Below are positions 410-3,298 of a DNA stretch of 5,577 nt, one piece after another. Each line of letters opens with the position of its first letter. The stretch's first letter is position 1. The notes under the pieces were generated by a model. The model ran no database searches. It was given only the letters and a program-made list of their open reading frames with translations, and had not been told where the DNA came from. The position numbers were made by a program, and so were the translations under genes. This stretch comes from Chroococcidiopsidaceae cyanobacterium CP_BM_RX_35 (GTDB lineage Bacteria > Cyanobacteriota > Cyanobacteriia > Cyanobacteriales > Chroococcidiopsidaceae), in contig JAFAVL010000362.1 in NCBI GenBank assembly GCA_019242465.1, positions 1 through 5,577 of the forward strand, in the 5' to 3' direction.

Positions 410-895
410 TTACCTTGCCATTGAACTGAAGCAGTTTTCAATTGTAATCTCCTGCCATTTTTTTGCAGGAGTATATCGATTGATATCATCTGTATCAATT
501 GTTGCAACGACAACATAGTCCCCATATTGGGAAGCAAGCGTAATTGCTTGAGATGCAAGAATAACGTCAATATCAATCCTCTCATCATGAGCAGTCTTTT
601 GCCCCGTCTGTCTTGCCCATGCCCATAGTTGGGCTCCCTTCAACATGATCTCAGTCGAAAGCGGATAGTAGACAATTCCCATCTTGCCAACCAAGTTTAA
701 AGCTTGAACGCTTGCAAGCTTTTTGCCGAAAACCAGTGTTCTACGCAGTTCGTAGTCGATAATCTCCGGCACGGCTACTACAATATTGCTACGAACTAAC
801 TGTTGAGCCCAACGCATGCAAGCAAGATGTTCTGCCTTGGCTGCTGGATTCGTGATAAGAGAGAGTGGATAAGAATCGAGGAGAACAAACGGCAT
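410..895 (-). CDS. PIN-domain ribonuclease (VapC-like toxin candidate)
   Basis: The 161-residue protein is one full PIN domain. Acidic positions fall where the family needs them: D7 in the opening strand (FVLLDSYPL), E44/D47/E49 in PEIIDYELRR, D110 in DIDVILASQA, and D134 or D136 in VVVATIDTDDINRY, followed by the usual A-x-x-W ending (W147). PIN domains of this kind are Mg2+-dependent single-strand RNases and usually act as VapC toxins paired with an antitoxin encoded just upstream. Here the upstream gene ends 14 nt before this start, and it is 222 residues long, not a typical short VapB. The ATG at 895 puts the first catalytic Asp at residue 7, which is normal; the Shine-Dalgarno is poor, consistent with translation from the upstream gene. 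It is the last gene of the four-gene cluster. The fold is confident; toxin activity and partner are inferred. Confidence 0.9.
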   Translation of the reverse strand: MPFVLLDSYPLSLITNPAAKAEHLACMRWAQQLVRSNIVVAVPEIIDYELRRTLVFGKKLASVQALNLVGKMGIVYYPLSTEIMLKGAQLWAWARQTGQKTAHDERIDIDVILASQAITLASQYGDYVVVATIDTDDINRYTPAKKWQEITIENCFSSMAR

Positions 896-909
896 CTTGA
901 AGGTTGTCT

Positions 910-1578
910 TTACTTCCAGCCGAATTCTTGCTTCAGGTACTCGAAAGTTTCAGACTGCTCCTGCTTCTCCTCTTCAGTCAAAGGATCTAACTGATCTAAC
1001 CGATGAATCTGCTGTTTACTTTGCTCAAGAATCTGCTCTAGTGGTTGCTTCCCAAGAACTAATTGCCACGTTCCAGTAGATAAGTGTTCTTCCTCAATGC
1101 TCTCACTGTTCCGAGCAATTGCCTCAAAGATAATGTCAGCAAACTTATCCAGGAGTTGCTCTCGCCGAGTACTTTGCCAAAAGAAGTTATAAGCTACCAT
1201 CACGGAGTCATAGGTTAGTCCAACTCTATCTAGCAGCGTATAGTTTGTAGGTTCTCGCCCAGAGAATATCAAAGCCATCTGCCTATATTGCTCACGTTCC
1301 TCAGGGAGTAGGCTGCTCCAATTTTGTGCTGCTTCTTCAGCTTGCAGTACCATCCCCTCATAAAGTACCAGTTCTACTCGTGCTAGGATAGGAGCTTCCC
1401 GCAAGATGGGTTGAAAATTCCGCTCCTCAAAGTATGTGTACCACTCTAAGTAGGTTCTGCCTCGAAATCGAGCCATAACCGTGTTGAAAGTCTTAGTCGC
1501 ACGCTCCAAACCTCGATTGAGAAAGTCCCGGATCTGAGCTTCGGGAAAAACTTCTTGAACTAGGGCGATCTCACTCAT
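910..1578 (-). CDS. Unrecognised helical protein, possible partner of the PIN protein
   Basis: I do not recognise this 222-residue protein. It starts MSEIALVQEV, has no signal peptide or membrane segment, and is rich in Glu, Gln, Arg and aromatic residues (for example TYLEWYTYFEERNF), suggesting a soluble, mostly helical protein. The last 35 residues are highly charged and end in the helix-like segment EQSETFEYLKQEFGWK, the sort of tail that in many antitoxins wraps a toxin; this is only a resemblance. I chose the ATG at 1578 because it overlaps the upstream stop in ATGA (1575-1578), a classic coupled junction, with a partial AGG signal 7 nt upstream. An upstream ATG at 1611 would add 11 residues (MEAGQFKDRRR) but needs a 37-nt overlap. 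Its place immediately before the PIN gene makes it the best antitoxin candidate by position. Confidence 0.8.
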   Translation of the reverse strand: MSEIALVQEVFPEAQIRDFLNRGLERATKTFNTVMARFRGRTYLEWYTYFEERNFQPILREAPILARVELVLYEGMVLQAEEAAQNWSSLLPEEREQYRQMALIFSGREPTNYTLLDRVGLTYDSVMVAYNFFWQSTRREQLLDKFADIIFEAIARNSESIEEEHLSTGTWQLVLGKQPLEQILEQSKQQIHRLDQLDPLTEEEKQEQSETFEYLKQEFGWK

Positions 1579-1856
1579 ACGTCGCCTATCTTTGAATTGT
1601 CCTGCTTCCATTGTTGCACCATATTGGTTAGCTGTTTACAGCTGGTTTGCAGGAATTTTCCAATTGCTTTGTATAAGGTACTATAGTCTCGACGCAACAA
1701 AGGGTTGAGAGAAAGTTCGGCTGGAGAACGAGCATTGCTATTGCTAGATAGGGCATCAAGCAAATCCATTAAAGAGTTAGGTCGCTTCAGGAAGTCGTTA
1801 TACAGCTCTTGGCGGAACTCCTGAAACTGAGCAATTAGGTCTTCTGTTGTAGACAT
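1575..1856 (-). CDS. 93-residue protein resembling a transposase N-terminus
   Basis: The frame begins 3 nt after the stop of the three-domain gene (TGA-GAC-ATG) and ends in a 4-nt ATGA overlap with the next gene, so it appears to be translated as part of the operon. The central segment (SLMDLLDALSSNSNARSP, then AELSLNPLLRRDYSTLYKAI) resembles, as I remember it, the opening 60-70 residues of a cyanobacterial DDE transposase family of roughly 400 residues. If so, this is either a truncated remnant or a domesticated fragment lacking the whole catalytic core. No DDE residues can be present at this length. Alternatively it is an independent small helical protein; at 93 residues it would also fit a small antitoxin. 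It has no membrane segment. Existence as a gene is fairly likely from the two tight junctions; the relationship to transposases is tentative. Confidence 0.68.
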   Translation of the reverse strand: MSTTEDLIAQFQEFRQELYNDFLKRPNSLMDLLDALSSNSNARSPAELSLNPLLRRDYSTLYKAIGKFLQTSCKQLTNMVQQWKQDNSKIGDV

Positions 1857-1859
1857 GTC

Positions 1860-3014
1860 TCAAGCAAATACGGGTGGCCACAGTTGGGATACTGATAGTT
1901 CCCATTCAGGTAACAACGCCGGAATTGTAAGTTTGTCGCTCTCTCGTAGCACGTGGAACTCAGTGCTAGAGTTATAAACAGTAACAGTCTGTTCGTCTGG
2001 ATCGATGAGCAGTCCTATCTTCGCCCCCAGCTCTAACAATCGTCGCAGCTTCTGTTGTCGTGATGCCAATTGGTCAAAGGCAGATTTAATCTCTACTACT
2101 AGGTCGGGCACTAATTCGGGATAAGTTCTTGGCAATCGCTTCAAGCGTTCTCGTGCAAAGAAAGAGATTAAAGGAGCGACTACATCTCCATTAGGCAACT
2201 GAAATCCCGTCCCGGCACTAACAATATGCCCGAGCTGACGAGGCTCGACCCAGGAGAACAAAAGTGCACAAAAGCGAACGCTAATTTCGCCAGAGGTAAA
2301 GTCGTTGGGAGAGTTACCCAAATCTTCCCCACTGCTCTTAATCCCAACGGAACTGCTGGTTACTAGTTGTATAGGTGTAGGTCCCAAGATGATTTCTTTT
2401 AGCACTTGTTGCCGCAGCTCTTGCAGATCCACTCTCAGGGTTTGAAGCACTCGCACTGCTACCCCATCCATCACCTGGAGCGAACCTAGCAGGAGATGCT
2501 CTGTGCCAATGTAGCTATGACCCAGCCTTCGAGCTTCTTCTAGCGAGTTGTCCAGGACAAGCTTAGCTTTGTGAGTAAAAGGACACTCCACGCCTTTAAC
2601 TCCAGCACCACGCCCGATAATTTTTTCGACTTCAATCCTCGCAGCGTCTAGATTTACCCCCGCCAATTTGAGTACCTTAGCAGCAACCCCACAATCTTCT
2701 GCAATCAGTCCCATTAGGAGTTGCTCGGTCCCCACAAATTGATGCCCCAAGCGACTACCTTCCTCTTGAGCAAGGACTATCACCTGCTTAGCCTTGGCAG
2801 TGAATCTTTCAAACATAGACTTTTCCTCAGAGGAGAAAATTGATTCAATCGGACAGCGAAACAGTTGGGCAATTTTGAAGGTCAGGGGCAGGCTGGGGTC
2901 ATATTTTCCCACTTCAAGGGCGTTGACCGTTTGACGGCTCACACCTAGATGTGCTGCCAAGTCCGCCTGTGACCAGTTGCGTTCAGCTCGGAGAATGCGT
3001 AAACGGTTTTCCAT
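1860..3014 (-). CDS. XRE helix-turn-helix / ClpC N-domain / Uma2 fusion protein
   Basis: The 384 residues hold three domains. Residues 1-66 are a complete small XRE-type HTH ([20 protein letters not shown], then YDPSLPL and FKIAQLF), like stand-alone regulators of about 66 residues. Residues 67-209 match both repeats of the ClpC N-terminal domain, starting [10 protein letters not shown], with the paired GTEQLL (E97) and GTEHLL (E172) motifs; in ClpC this domain docks adaptors and substrates. No AAA+ ATPase follows. After a polar linker (210-242), residues 243-384 are a Uma2/DUF820 PD-(D/E)XK-fold domain with [10 protein letters not shown] (E308, K310), [14 protein letters not shown] and a typical [19 protein letters not shown] end. 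The usual Asp of the first Uma2 motif (PD) is Leu here (L282). It leads the four-gene cluster and is the likely autoregulator at the palindromes upstream. No clear Shine-Dalgarno precedes the ATG at 3014, whereas an internal ATG at codon 67 has a good one. Confidence 0.92.
2814..2828 (-). promoter_or_regulatory. Internal ribosome binding site and start inside the fusion gene
   Basis: On the minus strand GAGGA (2828-2824) lies 7 nt before the ATG at 2816-2814, which encodes M67 of the fusion protein. This Met aligns with the native start of ClpC proteins (MFERFT). Initiation here would give a 318-residue ClpN-Uma2 protein without the DNA-binding domain. The signal is better than anything directly before the full-length start at 3014. 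It may also simply be a fossil of the gene that was fused. Confidence 0.42.
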
Positions 3015-3054: not shown

Positions 3055-3070
3055 TTACCATATATGGTAA
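3055..3070. promoter_or_regulatory. Perfect 16-bp palindrome, likely operator of the cluster
   Basis: TTACCATATATGGTAA is identical on both strands. It lies 41-56 bp upstream of the fusion gene ATG and just downstream of the extended -10, roughly +6 to +21 if transcription starts near 3076. On the minus strand an extra GGTAA half-site (3054-3050) follows directly. Position and symmetry fit a binding site for a dimeric XRE regulator, most simply the first gene's own HTH. Binding is inferred. Confidence 0.5.
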
Positions 3071-3077
3071 AGTCTAG

Positions 3078-3092
3078 TTGATATTATATCAA
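3078..3092. repeat. 15-bp perfect inverted repeat over the -10
   Basis: TTGATATTATATCAA has two 7-bp arms (TTGATAT / ATATCAA) around a single central base. It covers the whole extended -10 of the cluster promoter, so a protein bound here would block RNA polymerase directly. Part of the symmetry is the AT-rich -10 itself, so a regulatory role is less certain than for the 3055-3070 palindrome. Confidence 0.45.
3083..3091 (-). promoter_or_regulatory. Extended -10 promoter for the four-gene cluster
   Basis: The minus strand reads TG-A-TATAAT (3091-3083), a perfect extended -10 element, about 70 bp upstream of the fusion gene ATG. No good -35 sits 15-18 bp further up, which extended -10 promoters tolerate. 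The element is inside a second perfect palindrome (TTGATATTATATCAA on plus, 3078-3092). An alternative reading uses TTGATA (3092-3087) as the -35 with TACCAT (3069-3064) as the -10, spaced 17 bp; in that case the 16-bp palindrome would overlap the -10. Confidence 0.48.
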
Positions 3093-3298
3093 GCTAACTT
3101 TACTAAAGCGAGAGGAGAAATTTGATTGGGGCTACTGCTGTATGACTTTATGACTTGAGTTCAACACAGGGCTGTCCTCACTACTTATTGGTTGCTAGTC
3201 GATTGCTGCTCTCGCCAAGCTGGCAAATTTTTGGCGTGGCACAATTACCTCTTTGATGGCGATTTGGTATAAGCTGTTCTGAGAGTACGTAGTAGCCG
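3093..3298. other. Intergenic region between holB and the four-gene cluster
   Basis: No gene is supported here on either strand. It should contain the 3' end of the tmk-holB transcript and sequence upstream of the cluster promoter. I see a perfect tandem duplication of TATGACTT (3141-3148 and 3149-3156) and an inverted repeat CGCCAA/TTGGCG (3213-3218 and 3231-3236, 12-nt loop). The latter lacks a downstream T-run on the minus strand, so it is not a convincing terminator for holB. Confidence 0.5.

Follow-up and report, generated by a model that had tools for sequence, protein, structure and literature searches.

An XRE domain, a ClpC-like docking domain and a Uma2 domain joined in a conserved cyanobacterial protein family with a candidate operator at its own promoter

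Here, we analysed a stretch of DNA of 5,577 nucleotides (hereafter the window), whose reverse strand encodes at 1860..3014 a protein of 384 amino acids that was delimited by its open reading frame, Pfam domains and relatives. A single unbroken frame comprises an XRE helix-turn-helix (HTH), both repeats of the ClpC N-domain and a Uma2 fold. As the initial annotation had claimed, neither a stop nor a frameshift separates the domains. The observation of this fusion is confirmed as real and not trivial: XRE-ClpN-Uma2 proteins are a conserved cyanobacterial family. Judging from the domain anatomy and from a palindrome over the gene's promoter, we propose that the protein is a self-regulating transcription factor, similar to mycobacterial ClpC2, whose copy of the ClpC docking domain acts as a sensor or a decoy, a reading that we regard as about evenly balanced between right and wrong.

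Architecture, spread and relatives of the fusion

The XRE/HTH_3 DNA-binding domain (residues 1-66, Pfam match 5-57; 2817..3014, reverse strand), assigned by Pfam, alignment and solved-structure matches, scored 52.1 bits against a curated cut-off of 23, and its residues S26, R27, Q28, T29, N31 and E34 are invariant in 31 sequences. CylR2 and a PbsX-family regulator are among the solved structures matching the HTH; such CylR2/PbsX-type XRE regulators resemble the window protein in HTH sequence, but the matched chains of 65-66 amino acids consist of the HTH only, unlike the three-domain protein. The double Clp_N domain follows (residues 67-209, equivalent to ClpC 1-143; 2388..2816, reverse strand; Pfam and solved-structure matches). 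Both of its repeats score above the cut-off, and alignment and residue retention place the first GTE docking motif at residues 95-97 (2724..2732, reverse strand) and the second at residues 170-172 (2499..2507, reverse strand). A linker (residues 210-234; 2313..2387, reverse strand; pLDDT below 50 over 212-237) leads to the Uma2 domain. Pfam gave no match to an AAA+ ATPase domain within the 384 amino acids, in contrast to the ClpC-type AAA+ chaperones.

In a search for relatives, 7992 candidates were scored and 3330 matches obtained; of the 120 matches listed, on which the domain count rests, 109 contain HTH, Clp_N and Uma2 together (hand count of Pfam domains). The named organisms among these three-domain proteins are cyanobacteria, Chlorogloeopsis fritschii PCC 9212 being one of the listed carriers. 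The homologues do not split the fusion into separate genes, in line with the earlier claim. A full-length fusion was found in 17 of the 217 genomes examined from one GTDB family and, in a class-wide draw, in 4 of 388 genomes, both lower bounds since at most 8 and 4 candidates, respectively, were scored per genome; two further genomes of the 388 encode Clp_N-Uma2 proteins without HTH. A contig search yielded a single end-to-end match to the query (1-383) among the 80 loci listed, L001, and ClpC dominated the rest. For residue counts, a set of 108 fusions was employed, composed of the window protein and the 107 proteins that passed a filter (compared to 109 three-domain proteins by hand count). 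A link to mobile elements was considered and rejected, as none of the 618 plasmid records with a match covers 80% of the query; likewise, eight viral-contig stretches matched a pattern, and none of them encodes a relative.

Across the N-domain, the fused Clp_N is 58-67% identical to that of cyanobacterial ClpC loci found in the contig search. In a quick tree of 76 rows and 140 columns with many weak nodes, it is closest to cyanobacterial ClpC, in contrast to ClpC2 of mycobacteria. The N-domain of ClpC itself is nearly invariant (over the retained columns, 11 of 26 ClpC rows are identical; a Melainabacteria branch holds three of the 26), whereas branches are longer for the fused copies, which cluster with copies fused to an ArsR domain (SH-aLRT 92), four XRE rows lying nearer to the ArsR rows with a support of 81. 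Compared with solved ClpC N-domains (5gui, 3wdb, 5hbn, 2y1r), the fusion shares both repeats and both GTE motifs, and differs in lacking the AAA+ domains of ClpC. The residues corresponding to G29, T30, E31, T105 and E106 of ClpC are kept in 99-100% of the 108 XRE fusions, compared to a mean retention of 63%, which bears out the earlier statement that both GTE motifs are retained. They belong to 26 Clp_N positions kept at ≥93%, several of which are probably structural, and GTE retention may have structural grounds as well. For this comparison, we relied on what we take to be the contact positions of cyclomarin and phosphoarginine. Altogether, as far as its residues tell, the fused Clp_N resembles a docking domain of ClpC that still works. 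The initial annotation had suggested that a DNA-bound protein could mimic ClpC, with a link to phosphoarginine. The mimicry stands as anatomy, given the identity, the tree and the docking motifs. The sensing of phosphoarginine by the Clp_N part is weakened: an McsB-type arginine kinase (PF00217) was matched in none of 19 carrier genomes, nor in 14 control genomes, while of two Bacillota controls an Exiguobacterium genome was positive and the second genome negative.

The tree neighbours with an ArsR-type winged helix and a ClpC-like double Clp_N (ArsR-ClpN) occur in 32 of 217 genomes. Genome G001 also encodes such a protein (P0121), and examples include L145 (7061-7972, reverse strand) and L204-L233; annotations read e.g. 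'metalloregulator ArsR/SmtB family transcription factor' or 'Clp protease'. The ArsR group was picked by length and position only, and beyond P0210 the other 106 rows rest on this filter; P0210, which has four Clp_N stretches and no HTH, was counted as ArsR in the quick tree and left out of the residue-retention set. Like the XRE fusions, ArsR-ClpN proteins join a DNA-binding domain to a ClpC-like double Clp_N and retain the GTE motifs, but they carry the ArsR winged helix instead of XRE and gave no Uma2 match. As the XRE fusions have a conserved promoter site, the ArsR-ClpN genes have a conserved sequence beside the start codon: a sequence like ATTTCGATTATTCTAGAAAT abuts the chosen start codon in all 21 readable upstream regions (29 loci given), preceded in 19 of the 21 by TTGACA as judged by eye. 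Since XRE and ArsR fusions both exist, cyanobacteria show at least two ways of joining a DNA-binding domain to a ClpC-like docking domain. Three further proteins (P0210, P0235 and P0240; 316-346 amino acids) consist of four Clp_N stretches with no match to an ATPase domain; P0235 is marked partial.

The fusion gene is solitary. In a comparison of 24 sequences (23 loci and the window; some loci span only 2.7-7 kb), neighbour clusters are shared by three sequences at most. The XRE fusion is present in 20 of the 24, and L130, L131, L145 and L146 encode other proteins instead. One following gene is common to L001 and L132, and another to L126, L139 and L141. No adjacent partner gene is kept across the family in these 24 sequences, contrary to what a type II toxin-antitoxin pair would show. 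In the window, a gene for DNA polymerase III delta' precedes the fusion gene. A frame of 93 amino acids (1575-1856, reverse strand) begins a few bases past the fusion stop, resembles the first 75 residues of transposase family NF041680 and is probably the remnant of an insertion sequence. Farther on (410-1611, reverse strand), two frames of 161 and 233 amino acids gave no Pfam match at 0.001; the spacing of acidic residues in the former appears to us PIN-like.

An altered Uma2 domain

The Uma2 (DUF820) domain (PD-(D/E)XK fold; residues 235-375; 1890..2312, reverse strand; Pfam and solved-structure matches) shares fold and sequence family with the Uma2/DUF820 (COG4636) proteins 1wdj, 3ot2, 6okh and 9y1l. 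All four solved relatives contain a PD dipeptide, whereas the alignment places P-L there in the window protein, with Leu at residue 282 (2169..2171, reverse strand) in the position of the Asp. This is not a peculiarity of one sequence: the PD-Asp is absent from all 108 fusions, in which the position is taken by R (49), H (37), L (8), Q (5), G (3), C (2) or, once each, I, K, S and Y, but never by D. In contrast, each of the 14 separate Uma2 proteins compared keeps it, 13 of them from G001 and one encoded beside the L140 fusion (the fifteenth row, S_L140_3, is the L140 fusion itself). That gene, L140 8244-8810 on the forward strand, lies directly after the XRE-ClpN-Uma2 gene. The PD-Asp is required for catalysis in PD-(D/E)XK enzymes, and its loss from all fusions makes a working nuclease unlikely. 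On these sequence grounds, the Uma2 nuclease domain of the fusions is probably dead.

E and K of the E-x-K motif, E308 and K310 in the window protein (2085..2093, reverse strand; alignment), are present in 108 of 108 fusions, an invariance that is surprising for a purely structural module. The separate Uma2 proteins have E in 14 of 14 cases and K at that position in P0123 only; K310 therefore characterises the fusion branch and not the Uma2 family at large. Two HTH-free Clp_N-Uma2 proteins (L130 6989-7990 and L131 6980-7972, both on the reverse strand) possess neither the PD-Asp nor the E nor the K. The passages on this family in earlier papers describe DUF820 proteins as associated with toxin-antitoxin systems (PMC4963859) and the function of Uma2 as unknown (PMC1274311). 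The name 'Uma2 family endonuclease' spans at least one branch that is unlikely to be an endonuclease.

A conserved palindrome over the promoter

Upstream of the fusion gene, conservation together with palindrome and match tests delimits a 37-bp palindromic operator candidate (3067..3103, reverse strand), which ends 52 bp before the start codon. A promoter scan found one site, where shuffled sequences gave a mean of 0.6: TTGATA and TACCAT separated by a 17-bp spacer (3092-3064). The putative -35 hexamer (3087..3092, reverse strand) lies within the palindrome and the putative -10 hexamer (3064..3069, reverse strand) overlaps its end. The form common to the upstream regions is GTAAA-n3-AACTTGACA-n15-TTTACnATA, with the -35 and -10 hexamers within or overlapping it. 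Among 20 loci, which are related by descent and in which the site was placed by its best match to the L001 site, the mean pairwise identity is 0.70 in the 37-bp site, compared to 0.25 and 0.30 in upstream windows and 0.43 downstream; for pairs that include the window, it is 0.65 versus 0.27, 0.28 and 0.29 in the flanks. The best 40-base match exceeds the maximum of 2000 shuffles (25 of 40) in 16 of the 20 loci, L001 as the source of the reference included, and reaches 29 for the window; in L126, L128, L129 and L140 it does not rise above the shuffle maximum, and in L126 and L140 the spacer is one base longer.

The symmetry itself is uneven across the family. With shuffles that, like those of the match test above, preserve base content and not dinucleotide content, the 20 sites have on average 11.2 of 18 symmetric pairs compared to 5.2 in shuffles (sd 0.41), and the 14 of 18 pairs in the window were never reached in 300 shuffles. 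By palindromy alone, the conserved site is the best palindrome at p ≤ 0.05 in nine of the 20 loci, the window included; p exceeds 0.05 in L126, L127, L128, L133, L137, L139, L141, L143 and L144, and the significant palindrome is a different one in L129 and L142. The window additionally contains a perfect 16-bp palindrome, TTACCATATATGGTAA (3055-3070), which overlaps the -10 hexamer as well as the main palindrome at its end, was not seen in the other upstream regions compared and is perhaps an extra half-site.

Both patterns with which we searched for further copies were drawn from the same loci on which they were tested. Of 217 genomes, 13 have the site at 0-1 mismatch; all 13 are carriers, and the site always lies at the fusion gene. 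In these 217 genomes, no such copy was found at clpC or elsewhere, and four of 17 carriers (G457, G458, G537 and G560) have no site within one mismatch. A gap-tolerant pattern matched 16 of the 19 carrier genomes at a single site, in every case adjoining the fusion gene, and had no match in G458, G537 and G124, while its reversed control gave one match in the 19 genomes. At up to three mismatches, some match occurs in 56 of 217 genomes. All matches away from the fusion gene have three mismatches and were treated as background, because the reversed pattern matches in about 67 genomes (hand count). A wider regulon was considered and dropped, as the 217 relatives' genomes gave no evidence for one past the fusion gene itself. 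A conserved site with close copies only at the fusion gene predicts autoregulation without a wider regulon; the conservation may instead reflect activation or plain promoter conservation.

A proposed ClpC decoy that represses its own gene

But what might a DNA-binding protein do with the docking domain of a protease chaperone? A precedent is ClpC2 of mycobacteria. The study on this protein, in those parts that bear on its regulation, describes it as a partial homologue of ClpC1 that represses its own promoter at pseudopalindromic sites that overlap its putative -35 and -10 elements, that is kept off the DNA by the ClpC1 ligand cyclomarin A and that acts as a sponge protecting against this compound (PMC10030653). 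In anatomy, the fusion matches this logic: it is a protein similar to the ClpC N-domain without ATPase, has one operator candidate, located at itself, and lacks a partner gene common to the loci compared, and we therefore propose an autorepressor. As sequence, the pseudopalindrome over its own -35 and -10 is present in the window and conserved in the family, although palindromy alone is significant in only nine of 20 loci. The DNA-binding solution differs, since the authors suggest for ClpC2 that its C-terminal domain contacts DNA (PMC10030653), whereas the fusion has a separate XRE HTH predicted to do so and an attached Uma2 domain; the release mechanism would thus differ too. The initial annotation knew of no described system with this domain order. 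Among the matches listed from open-licence PMC papers, we found no published description of the XRE-ClpN-Uma2 architecture either, but ClpC2 provides a precedent for an autorepressing decoy that resembles the ClpC N-domain. Overall, the earlier interpretation is partly supported, with the idea of mimicry sharpened by the operator candidate; it had noted neither this conserved site nor the missing PD-Asp nor the parallel to ClpC2.

In the proposed mechanism, the XRE part would repress its own gene by binding to the palindrome that covers the promoter. A ligand of the ClpC N-domain, be it a surplus adaptor or client or a foreign peptide or protein hijacking ClpC, would lift repression by binding to Clp_N. 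Derepression would then supply more fusion protein, the extra copies of which could compete with ClpC for the ligand as decoy or sponge. Known cyanobacterial ClpC adaptors named in the relevant part of a published account are ClpS1, ClpS2 and NblA (PMC7966870), each of which could be a ligand of the fused Clp_N. Uma2 would most likely be catalytically dead and serve in dimerisation or in the binding of a ligand or of nucleic acid. With neither a second close copy of the site nor a widely shared neighbour, the conserved output would be the protein itself.

Three other readings deserve consideration. The same adaptors, together with a Clp_N that is ClpC-like and keeps its docking motifs, would suit a protein that gathers ClpC adaptors or clients, or attaches to the Clp machinery, and whose action is mainly on proteolysis and not on transcription. 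As close operator copies occur only at the fusion gene, there is little reason for a DNA anchor except autoregulation, and we consider this reading unlikely. The altered yet constrained pocket of Uma2, with R or H at the PD-Asp position in 86 of 108 fusions next to the constant E and K, invites the idea of an autorepressor that senses a ligand unrelated to ClpC through Uma2, e.g. DNA ends or nucleotides, with Clp_N as a spacer or oligomerisation part. This is quite unlikely in our view: the ArsR-ClpN family keeps the GTE motifs without a Uma2 match, which suggests that Clp_N is the part useful to both families.

A toxin and its antitoxin united in one protein would assign the antitoxin to XRE and the toxin to the Uma2 nuclease, with Clp_N as the point where the Clp protease takes over and releases the toxin. 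Antitoxins typically autoregulate, which would suit the operator candidate, and the invariance of E308 and K310 speaks for this reading as well. Yet the PD-Asp is gone from every fusion while every separate Uma2 protein has it, and the ClpC N-domain is a docking receptor rather than a degron. Although the Uma2 family is called a likely solo toxin of cyanobacteria in the pertinent passage of Makarova 2009 (PMC2701414), we regard a toxin-antitoxin function of the fusion as very unlikely.

We thus favour the self-regulating decoy, which can be extended speculatively. XRE-ClpN-Uma2 and ArsR-ClpN proteins might form a whole class of cyanobacterial 'guard' factors with a captured ClpC N-domain at their core, which watch the docking site of ClpC: once a hijacker such as a phage protein or a cyclic peptide is caught, the decoy gene would be derepressed and the cell flooded with decoys, and a repurposed Uma2 would add an input from nucleic acid or a ligand. 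In this extended form, we consider the idea rather unlikely. If the proposed autorepressor is real, the ClpC docking domain would serve as the sensor of an autorepressor in two phyla, in ClpC2 of actinobacteria and in cyanobacteria, with different solutions for DNA binding, and surveillance of the ClpC docking site would thereby become a general strategy. Few ClpC adaptors are known from chloroplasts according to the corresponding section of the account cited above (PMC7966870), and one protein with one operator would offer a compact handle on ClpC binders in cyanobacteria and, by descent, in chloroplasts.
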